NCBI GenBank assembly: GCA_024638915.1
Contig: JAHEJJ010000007.1
Location: 1 to 64,000 of the forward strand
Direction: 5' to 3'
Length of the DNA stretch: 64,000 nt
DNA from: Robiginitalea sp.
GTDB lineage: Bacteria; Bacteroidota; Bacteroidia; Flavobacteriales; Flavobacteriaceae
Made by a program: the position numbers and the translations under genes. Below the pieces are notes generated by a model, which was not told the origin of the DNA, did not search any database, and saw only the letters and a program-made list of their open reading frames with translations. Positions 1,750 to 59,255 of the stretch are shown here, in pieces. Within the stretch, counting starts at the first letter, position 1; every line of letters starts with the position of its first letter.

Positions 1750-2429
1750 TTATCGATCTTTTTGGGATTAATTTTAAAATCAAATTTTTTAGTAGCAACA
1801 CGGACAGCCTGCATAAAATCCCTGCCTGGATCCTCTTTTTCTGTTCTGTAGTTCTCATCTTTCTCCAGCCAGAGCTCGTGGGATTCAAAATTAGTGTATT
1901 CACAGTGGCCTATCAAATATTCTATGGTATACTTATCCGCCAAATAATGTACCAACCAAATGTTCGATTCCAACTGTGCTTTGGTAAGCGGATTTTCGTC
2001 CGTTCCCCCTACATTTTCGATACCGATGGCACAATGATTCAATCCAATAACATGGCGGGCCATATAGTTCTCGGGCATTAAACGGTATATTGTACCATCC
2101 CTGTCCACCATAAAGTGAGCCGATACATTTAGCCAGCTAACATCCTTTATATCAGGCCTATAATTCGAAAGAATGGGGTTTTTAAAAGCTTCAAATGATT
2201 GTTCCAGCGTCGGATAGACCGTCCAATGAAGCACTATCATTCTTGGTTCAATTATCGGCTGGTTCTGATGAAGATCATAACGTTCCGACATGTAGTCGAG
2301 CGTTAAATTAATGCGCTCTTTGTCAAAAACAATTGGTTTATTCTGAATCCTTTGCTGGGCTCTGGAACAACTTACACTCATAAGCAGGATAATGCCCAAA
2401 ACAAAAGTATTCTCAATCAGTCTAATCAT
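1746..2429 (-). CDS. AmpD/PGRP-type N-acetylmuramoyl-L-alanine amidase lipoprotein
   Basis: 227 aa from the ATG chosen here; an upstream in-frame TTG would add 7 residues but this ATG gives a clean lipoprotein signal (MSVSC, Cys21). The amidase_2 fold is recognisable: His68 in VLHWT and His175 in LIGHCEY are zinc ligands, Asp200 in KEDPG is the third, and Lys198 corresponds to the catalytic lysine of AmpD. ARHVIGLNHCAIGIENVG at about 124-141 is the typical core. It should cleave the muramyl-L-alanine amide bond, probably at the inner face of the outer membrane or in the periplasm. The start overlaps the preceding gene by 8 bp (ATGATTAG), indicating translational coupling. Confidence 0.88.
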   Translation of the reverse strand: MIRLIENTFVLGIILLMSVSCSRAQQRIQNKPIVFDKERINLTLDYMSERYDLHQNQPIIEPRMIVLHWTVYPTLEQSFEAFKNPILSNYRPDIKDVSWLNVSAHFMVDRDGTIYRLMPENYMARHVIGLNHCAIGIENVGGTDENPLTKAQLESNIWLVHYLADKYTIEYLIGHCEYTNFESHELWLEKDENYRTEKEDPGRDFMQAVRVATKKFDFKINPKKIDK

Positions 2430-3960
2430 TTTCGAAAAGTGTGTTTTCAAGAATTAACAGATCCACTCCCTTGGTATTCCAGGCATGGTTCAGGCTATCA
2501 GGAACCGGTGTGAATACATAGGTGAAGGGACTTAAGATCACATCTTCATCTCCGTCCTGATCAACATCGCCTTTTTCCAGCAACAGCCACCTGCCCGAGG
2601 CCGGATTTTCGAGTACCTCAGGGCTAAATCTGAAATCATCGGCCTTTTCATTCTTAAGGTAAACAAATGATAAAAGAGGATCTCGGTCGTAGTCCGGAAA
2701 AGTTGCGGCCAGCGCGAAATCCATATCCCCATCCTGATCAAAATCGTCGCCTACCACTCGTGTGGCCCCGTTCAATGGAAAGAAGAACGCCTCTTCAAAT
2801 TCGTTCTGTCCATTGTTTATATGAATTCGAAATCCGTGATAGGATTTATGAACATAAGACTTATCAGCATTATCACCATTTACCGTGATAATATCAAGAT
2901 CGCCGTCTCCTTCGTAATCCAATAAATCGAACCAGCTGCTCCCATAAATAGGACTAAATCTGAGTACTTTCTCAGTCCTGAAATTCAAGGGTTCTTCCTG
3001 ATATAATATAAGTATTCCTTCATCTCCCTGAGCGGTCAGGACCACCAGATCGGTCTTGCCGTCACCATTCATATCCTGGTCAATTACTCTGATACACCCG
3101 GGCTGCTCTAGCAAGACGCGCTTTTCCATTTCTTTAGCGCCGGTATCCTCAAATAGAGACAACCTTCCTTTTAAATTGCCGAATTCACTGATCAATACTT
3201 CCTCACGACCATTTTTGTCCAAATCTGTAACCAACATATGAACAGGTCTGTGAAGCATATCGCGACTAGGTTCAAATCCGGATTCACCTTTTTTAAATAG
3301 CCGTCCGCTGGATATTTCGGTAGGGTTTAACTGGCCAATACTGGCAGCGAAAGTCCCTTGCTGTGCTTCGTTATAGGAAATGATCGGATTTTCAAAACGA
3401 CCTAGCACGACTTCGCTTTGATCATTAACATTGTAGCGCATAACTTCCCCCTGGAGATCTGCCAATAATAAGGTACCCCTATCTTTTTCGTACTTTAAAA
3501 AAGTGGTGTTCTTGGAGCCTGGAATGGCATCGATTTTAATAGGTATTTCCTTAAATCCTGAAAGCACTTCAGTATTCATATCTGGAATGGCAGGCAAAGA
3601 ATCCGGGGCCATGGTAAGGATATAGTCGCGCAATCGATTCCACTGCTCTACTTTAATTACCGGACCGGGATGGTAAATGCCTGTTTTCAAGACAGCCTCC
3701 TGCTCATCAAAGGATAATCCTTTTAGAGGATTATAATCAGGGACCTTTACACCCATTCGCACTGCCATTTCAGGCAAAATGTTGTTTTCCCATATCGCCC
3801 TGGGTAAGTCCTCTATTTCCGGAGGAACATGGCAGCTACCACATTGCGCTTTGTATAAAGCCTGATCACTTTTCGTAACTTCTCTTGAACAACTGCATAA
3901 CCAATTTGCTGAAATAAAAACCAAAAGGGTAAAAAAAACAGAGGAAGGCCGACAATGCAT
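2422..3960 (-). CDS. Cytochrome c/FG-GAP (VCBS) repeat lipoprotein
   Basis: 512 aa. A lipoprotein signal ends at Cys24 (WLCSC). A single c-type haem motif CGSCH lies at residues 40-44, with Met64/Met67/Met-rich segment after it as possible axial ligand. The remainder carries repeated calcium-binding-like FG-GAP/VCBS motifs: DLDKNGREE, DQDMNGDGKTD, DYEGDGDLD, DFDQDGDMD and DVDQDGDED, consistent with a beta-propeller. The combination suggests a periplasmic or surface electron-transfer protein with a binding propeller; partner and substrate are unknown. First gene of the operon with the amidase and carboxypeptidase. It is divergent from the serine hydrolase at 4016, so the 55-bp gap must hold two promoters. 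Confidence 0.8.
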   Translation of the reverse strand: MHCRPSSVFFTLLVFISANWLCSCSREVTKSDQALYKAQCGSCHVPPEIEDLPRAIWENNILPEMAVRMGVKVPDYNPLKGLSFDEQEAVLKTGIYHPGPVIKVEQWNRLRDYILTMAPDSLPAIPDMNTEVLSGFKEIPIKIDAIPGSKNTTFLKYEKDRGTLLLADLQGEVMRYNVNDQSEVVLGRFENPIISYNEAQQGTFAASIGQLNPTEISSGRLFKKGESGFEPSRDMLHRPVHMLVTDLDKNGREEVLISEFGNLKGRLSLFEDTGAKEMEKRVLLEQPGCIRVIDQDMNGDGKTDLVVLTAQGDEGILILYQEEPLNFRTEKVLRFSPIYGSSWFDLLDYEGDGDLDIITVNGDNADKSYVHKSYHGFRIHINNGQNEFEEAFFFPLNGATRVVGDDFDQDGDMDFALAATFPDYDRDPLLSFVYLKNEKADDFRFSPEVLENPASGRWLLLEKGDVDQDGDEDVILSPFTYVFTPVPDSLNHAWNTKGVDLLILENTLFEND

Positions 3961-4015
3961 AGAACAAATTAATTCAAATTTTTATATTGAGGCAAGAAAT
4001 AATCACATACCATCC

Positions 4016-5350
4016 ATGAAATATATAAAGCGGATCATTCTTATAGCAGTAATTTTATTGATCATCACGCTGGCATTTCAGATCCCAAAGCTCAATATCA
4101 TCTCCGGATATGCCGCTAAAAATATGGCTTCTACAGTTTTTATCGCCGATAGAACAGCCCAATCTGTCTCCGAAAACGATCATAAAGTCCCCCTGATTGA
4201 ATTGGCGGATACCGATATTGATATAAAGGAGAAATCTGCGACTTCGAATGTTTTTGGACTCATGCAACGGAAAGCTGTTTTTTATGAAGGTCTGGGTTCT
4301 ATTTTATTAAATGATAATGCCCCTTCTTCGACTCACCTTATCAGACCGGAAAGACTTTTGGTGAAAAATCCCGCGCCTTTTCCTTTTGGTCATACGGCAG
4401 CAATCGACACAATAATTTCTGAAATAGATTATAAGAAACTTAAAAGCGTTTTGGACAATTACTTTATTCAGGATGAAGAATCCCGGACTCGAACCGTTAT
4501 GGTGATTTACAAAAACAACTTGATCGCAGAGCGATATGCCCCCGGGTTTAATCGTAATACTCCGATCCTTGGATGGTCTATGACCAAAAGTGTACTGGCT
4601 ACCCTCTTTGGCATTCTCAGATCTGAAGGACAAATCGATATATATCAACCCACCGGTTGGGAAGGCTGGAAGGACGACGATAGAAAAATGATCACATTTA
4701 ATCATTTATTGAGGATGCAGAGTGGCTTGGAGTGGGATGAAGACTATAGCAGTATCTCAGATGTAACCCGCATGCTGTTCCTCGAAGATGATATGGGAGC
4801 CATACAAGCCGCCAAGAAATCGATCGCAATACCCGGAGAGATATGGAATTACTCCTCGGGCACCAGCAACCTTCTTTCAAAGATGCTGCGCAAAAGGTTT
4901 CAGAATTACCAGGACTACCTTAATTATCCCTACCGACAGCTGATAGACAAGATCGGTATGCATAGCATGATTATAGAAACGGATATAAGCGGAAATTTCG
5001 TTGGTTCTTCCTATGGCTGGGCCAGCACAGGCGACTGGGCCAAATTCGGATTACTTTATCTCAACCGAGGTAAATGGCAGGATCAAATCGTCTTTGATCC
5101 AGAATGGGTGAACTATGTAACGCAGCCTACCGAAGATTCGGAAGGTAAATATGGGGCCCACTTCTGGCTTAATTCAAAGGGCAAATTTCCTGATGTCCCC
5201 AAAGACCTGTATTCGGCCAACGGCCACCAGGGTCAGCGCGTATACATAATTCCATCTAGAGAAGTGGTTATAGTTCGCACAGGGCTTGCTGAGGGGCCAT
5301 ACTTCGATGAAAACACCTTTTTAAGCGATATCCTGTCGGCCCTACCCTGA
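4016..5350 (+). CDS. Serine hydrolase of the beta-lactamase (class C-like) superfamily
   Basis: 444 aa with an N-terminal membrane segment (residues 6-22) that anchors the enzyme at the periplasmic face. The catalytic tetrad SMTK starts at Ser188, the second motif is Tyr279-Ser-Ser, and the third is His404-Gln-Gly, the pattern of PF00144 enzymes such as esterases, 6-aminohexanoate-dimer hydrolase and DD-peptidases. The third motif has His rather than Lys, as in the NylB/EstB branch, so esterase or amidase activity is more likely than antibiotic hydrolysis. Substrate unknown. Single-gene unit followed by a terminator at about 5511. Confidence 0.85.
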   Translation: MKYIKRIILIAVILLIITLAFQIPKLNIISGYAAKNMASTVFIADRTAQSVSENDHKVPLIELADTDIDIKEKSATSNVFGLMQRKAVFYEGLGSILLNDNAPSSTHLIRPERLLVKNPAPFPFGHTAAIDTIISEIDYKKLKSVLDNYFIQDEESRTRTVMVIYKNNLIAERYAPGFNRNTPILGWSMTKSVLATLFGILRSEGQIDIYQPTGWEGWKDDDRKMITFNHLLRMQSGLEWDEDYSSISDVTRMLFLEDDMGAIQAAKKSIAIPGEIWNYSSGTSNLLSKMLRKRFQNYQDYLNYPYRQLIDKIGMHSMIIETDISGNFVGSSYGWASTGDWAKFGLLYLNRGKWQDQIVFDPEWVNYVTQPTEDSEGKYGAHFWLNSKGKFPDVPKDLYSANGHQGQRVYIIPSREVVIVRTGLAEGPYFDENTFLSDILSALP

Positions 5351-5510
5351 TTTGTTCCGGTTTTATTTCCAAATAACACTTTTCCGGCACTTTACCACAA
5401 AACTGAGCCCACTCACAACATTAATTTCTGTTAGGCCAACTTAGGATGTATGTTTACAGAGTAATTAACAAAAAGAGTTAATTTTTTCATTTTCATATAG
5501 TGTTCTCGTA

Positions 5511-5544
5511 AAAGAGTCCTGATCGTCAAGACAGGGCTCTTTTT
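5511..5544. terminator. Rho-independent terminator, probably bidirectional
   Basis: AAAGAGTCCTG (5511-5521) pairs with CAGGGCTCTTT (5532-5542) with one T-G pair, around a 10-nt loop, and a T-run follows. It sits between two convergent genes, serine hydrolase and menB, so it can serve both. Confidence 0.75.
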
Positions 5545-5581: not shown

Positions 5582-6424
5582 TTAAGGAATCCATTTGTTT
5601 TTGCCGAACTGTGGCTTTCGCTTTTCAAGGAATGCATCCCTCCCTTCTTTAGCTTCATCCGTCATATAGGCCAATCGAGTAGCCTCTCCGGCAAATACCT
5701 GCTGACCTACCATGCCATCGTCTGTTAAGTTCATCGCGAATTTTAGCATTTTAATTGACGTGGGAGATTTATGCAGGATCTCCTGGGCCCATTCATAGGC
5801 TGTCTCTTCCAATTCTTCATGCGGGATCACAGCATTTACCATTCCCATTTCATGGGCGGCCTGAGCAGTATAGGTACGGCCGAGAAAAAAAATTTCCCGG
5901 GCCTTTTTCTGGCCCACCATTTTGGCCAGGTAAGCTGATCCATATCCGCCGTCGAAACTTGTCACATCAGCATCGGTCTGCTTAAAAAGTGCATGTTCTT
6001 TGCTGGCCAAGGTTAGATCACATACAACATGCAGACTATGTCCCCCACCGACAGCCCAGCCGGGAACAACTGCAATGACCACTTTAGGCATAAAGCGAAT
6101 AAGCCTTTGCACTTCCAGTATATTCAGGCGGTGGTACCCGTCCTTGCCCACGTACCCCTGGTCTCCTCGTGCCTTTTGATCGCCTCCACTGCAAAAAGAA
6201 TAAATGCCGTCTTTCGGAGAAGGGCCTTCACCGGTTAACAAAACCACGCCGATAGACGTGTCTTCCTGGGCATCATAAAGAGCCTTGTAAAGCTCGGTAG
6301 TGGTTTGTGGCCTGAAAGCATTACGCACTGCGGGCCGGTTAAAGGCAATTCTCGCAACTCCATCGCTTTTCTTATAGGTGATATCCTTAAAATCCCCTAC
6401 TGCTTTCCAATTCGCTTTTTTCAT
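5582..6424 (-). CDS. menB: 1,4-dihydroxy-2-naphthoyl-CoA synthase
   Basis: 280 aa, the usual length for MenB. It closes the second ring of menaquinone precursors by converting 2-succinylbenzoyl-CoA to 1,4-dihydroxy-2-naphthoyl-CoA, in the cytoplasm. The crotonase fold is evident: NRPAVRNAFRP near residues 29-39, the CoA-binding FCSGGDQ at about 77-83, oxyanion-hole VGGGHSLH at about 125-132, and the MenB-specific TSFDGGYGSAYLAKMVG region and C-terminal KRKPQF. No other men gene is adjacent, so the pathway is dispersed. Menaquinone is the respiratory quinone expected for the phylum. Confidence 0.97.
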   Translation of the reverse strand: MKKANWKAVGDFKDITYKKSDGVARIAFNRPAVRNAFRPQTTTELYKALYDAQEDTSIGVVLLTGEGPSPKDGIYSFCSGGDQKARGDQGYVGKDGYHRLNILEVQRLIRFMPKVVIAVVPGWAVGGGHSLHVVCDLTLASKEHALFKQTDADVTSFDGGYGSAYLAKMVGQKKAREIFFLGRTYTAQAAHEMGMVNAVIPHEELEETAYEWAQEILHKSPTSIKMLKFAMNLTDDGMVGQQVFAGEATRLAYMTDEAKEGRDAFLEKRKPQFGKNKWIP

Positions 6425-56438: not shown

Positions 56439-56948
56439 ATGATTAAAATTCTTTTCATTATCTCAATGGTATTTCCCTGGTATCTAACAGCCCAGGAAGA
56501 CAAAGGTTGTATCGGAGAATCCTATGCAATGATCAACCCGTTTATGGGCAACTGGAAGGAATTCACAGTAACCCAGGAGGCAGAAGTTTATATGGGTACC
56601 CTTCAATCAAGCAAAGGACAAGACAAATGTACCATCACACAACGTTTTATAAGTGCCGACGGGAGTTTCTCCTATCAATGCTTCGGATATGTAGATTCCT
56701 CCACTAGTAACTGGAAAGAAATTTATGTATTTAATAATGGTAATCACTCTGAATATCAATGGTTTAAGGAGGATAGCGACATAATTATGAGGCGAACCAG
56801 CGGAACACGTCTTCTAGACTATATGCACCAATTACGCCTTACCAATATAACAAAAGACTCCTATGATGTCTTTGAAGAACACTCTTATGATAATGGAATC
56901 ACCTGGCAAAATGTTGAACTCACAAGAATAAAGAGGTCAAATCCATGA
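56439..56948 (+). CDS. Secreted protein, DUF1579-like
   Basis: 169 aa from the ATG at 56439 (a GTG upstream is open). A signal peptide (MIKILFIISMVFPWYLTAQ) precedes a single domain with the repeated pattern GNWKEFTVTQEAEVYMG ... CTITQRFISADGSFSYQCFGYVD ... RRTSGTRLLDYMHQLRLTNITKDSYDVFEE, a beta-rich fold reminiscent of lipocalin-like DUF1579 proteins. Ends in ATGA, overlapping the broken gene that follows, so the two were co-translated. Confidence 0.7.
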   Translation: MIKILFIISMVFPWYLTAQEDKGCIGESYAMINPFMGNWKEFTVTQEAEVYMGTLQSSKGQDKCTITQRFISADGSFSYQCFGYVDSSTSNWKEIYVFNNGNHSEYQWFKEDSDIIMRRTSGTRLLDYMHQLRLTNITKDSYDVFEEHSYDNGITWQNVELTRIKRSNP

Positions 56949-57199
56949 AAAAAGACAATTATGGCAAGTGGACTTCCAAGCAGCTGCATCGACAGTTTAA
57001 AAATCTCAATTTGGCCATAAGATTACTGGCAGGTATACTACTTGTGATTTTTGCCCTGACTATTTACAAGTCTATAAAGTAAGGACGAATTAATCCTTTG
57101 TTGATCTCTCCCATTGCACTTTCTATTATAATCCCATTAAATTTCAAAAGGATTAGGGATATTAGAGAAGAGATTCAGCGCAGGGAGCAAGAACACTGA
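56945..57199 (+). pseudogene. Small membrane protein gene with in-frame TAA
   Basis: From the ATG at 56945 the frame gives 45 aa with one membrane helix (LAIRLLAGILLVIFALTIY), then TAA at 57080-57082, and immediately continues in frame for 38 codons (GRINPLLISPIALSIIIPL, then a charged tail RIRDIREEIQRREQEH) to a TGA at 57197. The second half is plainly protein-like, with a second helix and no rare start. The 83-residue two-helix whole resembles small Bacteroidetes membrane proteins. Either a nonsense mutation or a recoding site; the first seems simpler. It follows the secreted protein gene with an ATGA overlap. Confidence 0.65.
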
Positions 57200-57266: not shown

Positions 57267-57476
57267 TTATTTCCCTTTTCTAAGATCCAAAAAGGCTACA
57301 AACACCAATAATGCCCCTACAGTTAGTTTATAACTAATATACCAGGCTTTGGAAGTCTCTAATCCAAACAAAATCTCATATGAAATCCTGGAGGTAAATC
57401 CAAAGAGCAATGCCAGAGCAGAAATCAAAAAGAGCAGTCCAAGAGCTATAAAGAAGAAGTTCAATATGTTTCTCAT
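57267..57476 (-). CDS. Small two-helix membrane protein
   Basis: 69 aa, unrecognised. Two hydrophobic helices (residues 6-26 and about 47-62) separated by ISYEILFGLETSKAWY and a final basic DLRKGK. It lies downstream of the double-glycine peptides on the same strand but across the hairpin at 57509-57546, so co-transcription is uncertain. A small immunity-like membrane protein is one possibility; nothing in the sequence proves it. Confidence 0.55.
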   Translation of the reverse strand: MRNILNFFFIALGLLFLISALALLFGFTSRISYEILFGLETSKAWYISYKLTVGALLVFVAFLDLRKGK

Positions 57477-57508: not shown

Positions 57509-57546
57509 ATGAACTGCACCTTGATTTTGGCCAAAGTGCAGTTCAT
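57509..57546 (-). terminator. Long perfect hairpin after the double-glycine peptides
   Basis: ATGAACTGCAC and GTGCAGTTCAT (11 bp, perfect) enclose a 16-nt loop, 14 bases after the stop of the second peptide gene. No T-run follows on the minus strand, so it may be a processing or partial termination site rather than a classical terminator. Confidence 0.5.
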
Positions 57547-57559
57547 AAGCTGTCTCAAA

Positions 57560-57709
57560 CTATTTGATGAATTTGAGCAGCCGTCCTACACCAAATACGG
57601 TTATCGCTACTTCTAGAACGTCTCCTACAAGAACACCTGCATGATAGGCTGAGCCATTATGGCCGCCATTGATTGCGGCTTGTTCTGATATTTCCAATTC
57701 TCTTATCAT
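57560..57709 (-). CDS. Double-glycine leader peptide A, 49 aa (bacteriocin-like)
   Basis: ATG at 57709, TAG at 57560. The leader ELEISEQAAINGG matches the double-glycine consensus (Glu at -8 relative region, hydrophobic at -4, Gly-Gly at 15-16). The mature part is 33 residues: it starts HNGSAYHAG, contains GVLVG (a GxxxG motif) and a hydrophobic stretch VLEVAITVFGVG, and ends RLLKFIK. Two-peptide class IIb bacteriocins have this form. No C39 peptidase/ABC exporter is in the window, so processing would need a distant one. Found by translating the gap; separate from peptide B by 65 bp. Confidence 0.65.
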   Translation of the reverse strand: MIRELEISEQAAINGGHNGSAYHAGVLVGDVLEVAITVFGVGRLLKFIK

Positions 57710-57774
57710 TTTTAGATTTGTTTTTTAAGTTTATATATATTCTTTTTTAGACGGGTCGTCAAAAGACTCCACCC

Positions 57775-57936
57775 CTATTTCCACAAGGAGCTCAGCCCAT
57801 CTTTAACGCCTCTGAAAAAATCATTCAGGGCATGAGATCTGTAGGCAATGCCCCCTGGAGGTCCAAAGCCACCTTTGACCGATCTCAATTCTTCACTTTT
57901 AAGCTCTACCATTTCATTTGTCGGCATATTTTCCAT
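57775..57936 (-). CDS. Double-glycine leader peptide B, 53 aa (bacteriocin-like)
   Basis: ATG at 57936, TAG at 57775. The leader ends LKSEELRSVKGG, a near-perfect double-glycine motif (LS-x-EEL-xx-V-x-GG) with cleavage after Gly23. The predicted mature peptide is 30 residues: FGPPGGIAYRSHALND, then FFRGVKDG with a GxxxG motif (GVKDG), ending LSSLWK. It carries four basic and two acidic residues. With peptide A it forms a tandem pair sharing leader type, size and GxxxG. A palindrome lies 39 bp upstream. Role as bacteriocin, pheromone or other secreted signal is inference. Confidence 0.7.
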   Translation of the reverse strand: MENMPTNEMVELKSEELRSVKGGFGPPGGIAYRSHALNDFFRGVKDGLSSLWK

Positions 57937-57974: not shown

Positions 57975-57986
57975 CAGTGATCACTG
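57975..57986. promoter_or_regulatory. Perfect 12-bp palindrome upstream of peptide B
   Basis: CAGTGATCACTG is its own complement and lies 39-50 bases before the ATG of peptide B. That is a normal position for an operator of a dimeric regulator. A second palindrome CTCTGCAGAG lies at 58019-58028. No binding protein is identified. Confidence 0.4.
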
Positions 57987-58064: not shown

Positions 58065-59255
58065 TCAGAGCTGTTTAAGCACCGAGATCATAAGTTCCCG
58101 GCGTTGAAGTACTTCTTCCTGGCTCCAGCTGAGTTTTACAAGACATGAAATGGTCCGCGACATCCAGTGATCAGAAGCGGAAAAACTTTTATTATTCCAA
58201 TTTCCGATCCCCTGTTGAACCTCATTGCTTAGGTTGCCAAGGCTTATCATCTGTTTTAGATGTTCCCATTTTCTATGATAGTGCCAGTTGTTGTCGTACC
58301 AGTAAAAACAAGCATCTATGCCTGCTTCGGTCAATTTCCGGATGGCATGGCGGGCCTTCTCTTCGTCGGGCAGAAAAAAATTAAGGAAAGAGTAATTTTC
58401 AACCCCGCCTTCCGGCACACGTCTGAATTCAATTTCCGGAATCTCCTGTAGTCCTTCCTTCAGTATATTATAGTTCTTCTCCTGAATTTTAAGGAATTCG
58501 TCTATTCTTCTCAACTGTGCCAGCCCGATGGCAGCATTCAATTCAGAAATACGAAAATTATAACCCAGAAAAGGATGTTTTTCCGCACCACGATCTGTTC
58601 CTGCATGATCATGGCCATGGTCGGAATAATGGTCGGCCTTATGGTAATATTCAGTATTATCGGTAATCAAGGCTCCGCCTTCTCCACAGGTAATCGTTTT
58701 TACATAGTCGAAACTAAAGCACCCTATATCGCCTATACTTCCCAGTGGCTGCCCTTTATAGGTCCCCCCGATAGCCTGGCAGGCATCTTCCAGCAATATC
58801 AAATTATATTCCTCGCATATAAACTTTAAGGTATCCAGATCGGCCATTGAACCGCACATGTGTACTGGCATTATGACCCTGGTCTTGTCGGTAATGGCAT
58901 TTCTGACCGCCTCAGGATCGAGGGTGAGGGTATCGTCTATATCCACCAAAACCGGGACCGCCCCCATTGCTATCACCGCCTCAAAACTAGCGACAAATGT
59001 GAATACAGGCAGGATCACCTCATCCCCTGCTCCTACACCACTACTGGCCATAGCTACGGTTAACGCCGCCGTTCCGCTACTGAGGAGTTGCGCATGTTTT
59101 ACCTGCATTCGCTTGGCCAACAAAAATTCCATTTCCCGGGCCTTCCAATGACCGTTGCGCATGCCGTCGAATCCATAGCGCATCAATACTCCTGATTCCA
59201 ATACATCATGGGTCTCAGCCCGCTCCCTATCGCCAAATAATTCAAATCCTGGCAT
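58065..59255 (-). CDS. DegT/DnrJ/EryC1/StrS family aminotransferase
   Basis: 396 aa PLP enzyme. SSGTAALTVAM, DEVILPVFTFVAS, LLEDACQAIGG, the PLP lysine in SFDYVKTITCGEGG (about 190), and NFRISELNAAIGLAQL are the DegT family blocks. Such enzymes make amino sugars for surface glycans or antibiotics. The Lys environment ITCGEGGALIT is as in sugar aminotransferases. First gene of a small minus-strand run, next to the peptide genes but 129 bp from them. Confidence 0.9.
   Translation of the reverse strand: MPGFELFGDRERAETHDVLESGVLMRYGFDGMRNGHWKAREMEFLLAKRMQVKHAQLLSSGTAALTVAMASSGVGAGDEVILPVFTFVASFEAVIAMGAVPVLVDIDDTLTLDPEAVRNAITDKTRVIMPVHMCGSMADLDTLKFICEEYNLILLEDACQAIGGTYKGQPLGSIGDIGCFSFDYVKTITCGEGGALITDNTEYYHKADHYSDHGHDHAGTDRGAEKHPFLGYNFRISELNAAIGLAQLRRIDEFLKIQEKNYNILKEGLQEIPEIEFRRVPEGGVENYSFLNFFLPDEEKARHAIRKLTEAGIDACFYWYDNNWHYHRKWEHLKQMISLGNLSNEVQQGIGNWNNKSFSASDHWMSRTISCLVKLSWSQEEVLQRRELMISVLKQL

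Follow-up and report, generated by a model that had tools for sequence, protein, structure and literature searches.

Three small genes on the minus strand of a 64,000-nucleotide stretch of Robiginitalea sp. DNA (the window, analysed as a whole) probably constitute a cassette for a two-peptide bacteriocin resembling those of class IIb, in which a helical hairpin protein would provide immunity and the exporter would act in trans. That the first two products, peptides A and B, are secreted as a pair after processing by a C39 peptidase is highly probable. The genes share one direction and lie downstream of a DegT-type aminotransferase gene; they and the nearby elements are as follows.

58065-59255: DegT-type aminotransferase gene, upstream of the genes for A, B and the 69-aa protein
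57975-57986, no strand assigned: 12-bp palindrome, 38 nt upstream of A
57775-57936, minus strand: peptide A precursor, 53 aa, with a 23-aa double-glycine leader (57868-57936) and a 30-aa mature part (57778-57867)
57796-57810, minus strand: GxxxG motif GVKDG within the mature part of A
57560-57709, minus strand: peptide B precursor, 49 aa, with a 16-aa double-glycine leader (57662-57709) and a 33-aa mature part (57563-57661)
57623-57637, minus strand: GxxxG motif GVLVG within the mature part of B
57509-57546, no strand assigned: hairpin with 11-bp perfect arms, between B and the membrane protein gene
57267-57476, minus strand: small membrane protein of 69 aa with two helices, candidate immunity protein

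All three frames are intact. The initial annotation had placed the two peptide frames on the correct strand and position, had given them these leaders and mature parts of 30 and 33 aa, and had credited each with one GxxxG; A in fact has two such spacings, GVKDG and, where its mature part begins, GPPGG, and its distant homologues keep only GVKDG. It had overlooked the adjoining gene for the two-helix membrane protein. Mature A and B have monoisotopic masses of 3291.69 and 3478.95. The net charges are +2 for A and +1 for B, and a structure model of B, of low confidence (mean pLDDT 64.2), has a single helix running across the mature part. A double-glycine leader pattern, formulated after A and B had been seen, picks out A and B alone from the window's 336 ORFs of this size class (35-90 aa). 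When 60 windows were simulated (Markov-2, about 530 ORFs each), the same pattern was matched on average 0.87 times per window (maximum 5), and this frequency of look-alikes is what the idea of chance frames mimicking double-glycine peptides can draw on; a same-strand pair no more than 300 bp apart was found in none of the 60.

Comparison with a sister species (G001) bears on the same question. There the genes for A, B and the 69-aa protein lie in identical order beside the same aminotransferase gene, with amino-acid identities of 85%, 76% and 68% respectively, and dN/dS values of 0.081 for A, 0.150 for B (dS about 1 for both) and 0.198 for the 69-aa protein; the two flanking genes, the aminotransferase and one on the other side, give 0.066 and 0.107. 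Between the two species, 3 of the 30 mature residues of A and 5 of its 23 leader residues differ. All three cassette genes are under purifying selection. With low dN/dS (0.08 and 0.15 at dS of about 1), no adjacent pair in the simulations and homologous pairs near exporters elsewhere, chance frames have a negligible probability, and conservation already refutes that reading.

Five A sequences share, after the start, L12, both leader glycines, and G43, D46 and G47 of a GxxDG motif; four B sequences share, among other residues, the leader glycines and Y22, G25 and G29 of a YxxGxxxG motif. With six B sequences aligned G29 is no longer invariant, the last glycine being absent from the peptide of locus L123. 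The glycines of GxxxG are among the few invariant positions of the five A and four B sequences.

Homologues of the pair were recovered in other Bacteroidota, and they lie near ABC exporters. A single-sequence search with A gave credible matches in 3 of 397 family genomes, namely the window's own genome, the sister and G253; a match in G243 (L010) was discarded, since it lacks a double-glycine leader and a 435-aa frame overlaps it on the opposite strand. In G253, genes for an HTH-like protein, a C39-ABC exporter and HlyD are followed by an A-like, a B-like and a third double-glycine peptide and by a homologue of the small membrane protein. In G123, reached through the small membrane protein, an HlyD-like gene on one side and a C39-ABC gene on the other enclose A-like and B-like peptides together with the membrane protein. 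In G026 the row runs from the end of an ABC exporter gene, the only part of that gene in view, through an HTH-like protein and a double-glycine peptide to A, the membrane protein and B. A scan of named genomes with the exporter as query led to a Cloacibacterium MAG (L116), where single-sequence searches found both A and B (E 5e-5 and 1e-5) and where the pair is followed by an Abi-motif membrane protein, HlyD, C39-ABC and a TolC-type protein. The exporters close to A and B in these four genomes belong to one subfamily, and HlyD is present in three of the four.

Order-wide profile searches, the window's genome included, matched A in 21 of 395 genomes and B in 7 of 395, but 15 of the 26 A-profile matches listed end at or before position 35 of the 53-position profile, so that they rest largely on the leader. 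From the scan of named genomes, which excluded the window's genome and very near ones, we took the best 80 of 550 confirmed loci; together with G253 and G123 these 82 loci hold 150 double-glycine peptides, spread over 67 loci. Five A-B pairs were counted among 57 adjacent pairs in the 82 loci, where 2.5 were expected (p 0.088), and a profile version with 142 peptides, from which the training loci L012, L048, L116 and L123 were omitted, gave p 0.0996. Both tests are non-significant, so the pairing of A with B is shown for the named homologues only. The clusters of G253, G026 and L157 each have three double-glycine peptides; the term two-peptide may therefore not fit every relative, and the initial statement that the combination of features defines class IIb went too far. 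Peptides of the same-family loci L133, L135 and L151 recur in identical form in loci of Croceitalea (L114) and Flavobacterium (L069), and the Sinomicrobium pectinilyticum locus L128 (7176-9586) has six consecutive double-glycine peptides, most with long Gly/Val-rich mature parts.

The window has no exporter, as had been noted at the outset, and no C39 match was found anywhere in the assembly; its five ABC exporters with an ABC_membrane domain show 23-34% resemblance to the C39 exporter of the sister. The sister has exactly one C39 match, in an exporter gene beside an HlyD gene on a different contig from the peptides, and no double-glycine peptide was seen beside that exporter in the filtered ORF list. 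This exporter is 51-54% identical to five members of its subfamily, including those of G253, G123 and L116, 50% identical to part of the L133 exporter, and 44-46% identical to the approximately 190 residues in view of those at L155 and L157; identity to four other C39 exporters of the family is 26-29%. A C39 ABC transporter and an accessory protein are present in the sister and near the pairs of relatives, and none was found in the assembly that contains the window.

Contig C69 of this assembly starts at the equivalent of position 6161 of the sister locus L022 and does not reach the HlyD and exporter genes (2181-5537). The sister's 6.16 kb from that point to its own contig start, neighbouring genes included, have no match in the window's genome. 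Since the contig end falls at the exporter's place, absence of the exporter is not established; an assembly gap is the likely and simplest account, with a larger loss as the alternative, and the absence from the window, first described as unusual, probably reflects this contig end and the location of the exporter elsewhere in the sister. A relic, in which the strain has lost its exporter, no longer secretes the peptides and perhaps benefits from the immunity protein alone, would fit a genome in which there is no C39 match and at least 6.1 kb of the sister's exporter region are unmatched. We regard it as improbable: the contig stops exactly there, the neighbouring genes are missing too, as an assembly gap would have it, and the three frames of the cassette are intact.

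The third gene of the cassette encodes a protein that is modelled as two helices, residues 2-24 and 43-66 (mean pLDDT 86.3), and we propose it as a candidate immunity protein. It has no match to known immunity families, and a fold search returned no matches at E ≤ 0.001. When its sequence (P0003) was used alone, 22 of 388 genomes were matched at E ≤ 0.05, the strong matches being in the window's own genome, the sister and G123; most of the others have stop codons inside or lie within long frames, and this result was set aside. A four-row profile matched 6 of 388 family genomes, namely the four source genomes, G026 and G131, and A and B lie beside the homologue in five of these six, a count in which four genomes had also served as profile rows. 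The homologue in G131 (L167, 1501-1707) has no double-glycine peptide within the 3.2 kb viewed; possibly it is an orphan immunity gene.

Membrane proteins of another type accompany many of the related peptides. A paper on two-peptide bacteriocins (PMC6957408) describes clusters in which a pair of precursors is joined by an immunity protein, a transporter and an accessory protein; according to it all immunity proteins are predicted to have transmembrane parts, and some belong to the Abi family. With the Abi motif adapted from that paper (R or Q allowed, spacings set, and an H...N end added after examples had been seen), all three motifs occur in 25 of 47 multi-helix ORFs (120-320 aa) near a double-glycine peptide, that is within 2 kb on the same strand, versus 2 of 42 elsewhere in the 80 named loci (Fisher p 2.8e-7; 21 of 80 loci; ORFs of a single locus are not independent). 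A CAAX-like profile gave 18 of its 22 matches within 2 kb of a double-glycine peptide, a zone covering 12.6% of strand positions, although its seeds had been chosen beside such peptides and the figure is biased accordingly. No multi-helix Abi-motif ORF lies near A and B at the G253, G123 or sister loci, and none was found in the sister stretch syntenic with the cassette; G123 has a short CAAX-type fragment below the Pfam cut-off. At these three loci the two-helix hairpin protein may substitute for the Abi-type protein. Upstream of the Cloacibacterium pair (L116, 741-2117) lie two more CAAX/Abi-like membrane proteins, one of which exceeds the Pfam cut-off (PF02517, E 1.9e-10).

Double-glycine leaders serve pheromones too. 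An alternative explanation for the cassette is that A and B are pheromones secreted by the same C39 route, with the small membrane protein as a sensor or modulator. The HTH-like proteins in the G253, G026 and G123 clusters count for signalling, as does a weak match of the B-like peptide of L132 to the BlpC pheromone model (E 2e-4, 21 bits versus a cut-off of 70). Against signalling, no kinase gene was seen in the stretches viewed around the A/B pair, and a bacteriocin better fits the combination of two distinct peptides with conserved GxxxG and a transmembrane partner, as it does the Abi-type proteins of related loci. The enrichment of Abi motifs, taken with the cluster make-up described in PMC6957408, makes the related clusters resemble those of bacteriocins more than those of signalling systems. 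Signalling is thus an unlikely function, though one with some claim to consideration, and we favour a bacteriocin function for A and B at rather better than even chances. Counting against a bacteriocin are the G131 homologue without peptides, the missing C39 match in the genome itself, the relatives with three peptides, the two non-significant pairing tests, the lack of a known immunity family for the 69-aa protein, and the sister's syntenic stretch, in which no Abi-type gene lies.

Most two-peptide bacteriocins known so far come from Gram-positive bacteria. Like lactococcin G, carnobacteriocin XY and the plantaricins of class IIb, A and B have adjacent double-glycine precursors, a conserved GxxxG in each mature part and a small transmembrane neighbour, and their relatives add a C39-ABC exporter, an accessory protein and Abi-type membrane proteins (following the features given in PMC6957408). 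They differ from class IIb in the Gram-negative host, in the HlyD and TolC-type partners, in the separation of exporter and peptides in this genus, in an immunity candidate of no known family, and in curated-model matches that stay below cut-offs. Such matches are those of A to the lactococcin G-beta model and of the Cloacibacterium B to the G-alpha model, both weak; that of A to TIGR03949 (lactobin A/cerein 7B; 18.9 bits, cut-off 21.5), which covers residues 10-26 and so mostly leader and has no counterpart for B among the matches listed; and that of A to TIGR04149 (rSAM-modified RiPP; 12.2 bits, cut-off 25). TIGR03949 and Pfam Bacteriocin_IIc were each matched by 14 of 32 hand-picked related peptides at E ≤ 0.1. 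Sequence searches against solved structures with A and B profiles gave nothing useful, and a plasmid search with A yielded a single weak match (E 0.4), which carries the annotation 'bacteriocin-type signal sequence'.

Two Gram-negative systems invite comparison. Bacteroidetocins share with A and B a Bacteroidota host, a double-glycine leader and a C39-ABC exporter; as PMC6671954 describes them, they are single peptides with at least two cysteines in the mature part, accompanied by a protein of five helices and in most cases by a thiol oxidoreductase, and no immunity protein was found for them, whereas A and B have no cysteines. Cdz of Caulobacter crescentus is, according to PMC5380434, a two-protein toxin that uses type I secretion and has a small transmembrane immunity protein, and on this precedent A and B could be a contact-dependent, surface-bound toxin. 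Its proteins are longer (84-86 aa), with GxxxGxxxG glycine zippers and leaders likened to RTX secretion signals, whereas the A and B precursors of 53 and 49 aa, with mature parts of 30 and 33 aa, hold no GxxxGxxxG, and we think a Cdz-like toxin quite improbable.

The class IIb-like bacteriocin is our preferred reading; the initial suggestion of a bacteriocin-like pair with C39-type leaders is borne out as far as homologous pairs near ABC exporters and invariant GxxxG glycines are concerned, and is partly supported as a whole. Beyond the existence and conservation of the genes, the steps of the proposed mechanism draw on what is known of the family and on gene order in relatives. A C39 domain would recognise the double-glycine leaders and cleave after Gly-Gly, and the ABC exporter, working with an HlyD adaptor and a TolC-type channel in the outer membrane, would release mature peptides of 30 and 33 aa. 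Once in a related competitor's membrane, the cationic, helix-prone A and B would associate by their GxxxG faces and make it permeable, and the 69-aa two-helix protein would shield the inner membrane of the producer. The exporter would, in this genus, be encoded apart from the cassette and act in trans. More tentatively, and at somewhat below even odds, A and B could represent a widespread Bacteroidota lineage of membrane-permeabilising two-peptide bacteriocins that share one C39 exporter subfamily and whose immunity has been swapped between Abi/CAAX-type proteins and the new hairpin, with cassette and exporter split in this genus.

The proven double-glycine toxins of Bacteroidota are the bacteroidetocins, which are single peptides with no known immunity protein (PMC6671954); a cassette of A, B and a membrane protein would offer a small, testable system for flavobacterial competition and a candidate new family of immunity proteins. 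A natural-product survey of Flavobacteriaceae reports many RiPP-type clusters, and the word 'bacteriocin' is absent from its main text (PMC10734526). Among the matches listed from the open-access full-text literature, a scope outside which most subscription journals lie, no title concerns two-peptide double-glycine bacteriocins of Flavobacteriia. A screen of Gram-negative genomes for double-glycine peptides, by Dirix et al. in 2004, reportedly exists and may include relatives.

Two DNA elements flank the peptide genes. The arms of the hairpin between B and the membrane protein gene are identical in the sister and the loop differs (-26.1 and -29.0 kcal/mol); its inner pattern has no other copy in the genome, and it is a possible terminator, processing or stability element. 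At the place equivalent to the palindrome upstream of A the sister also has a palindrome, in which both arms have changed in concert, as would be expected of a regulator site, and this is a possible role for it. Beyond the membrane protein gene, a plus-strand ORF of 45 aa (56945-57082) is shorter than its intact 85-aa counterpart in the sister (L007, 674-928).
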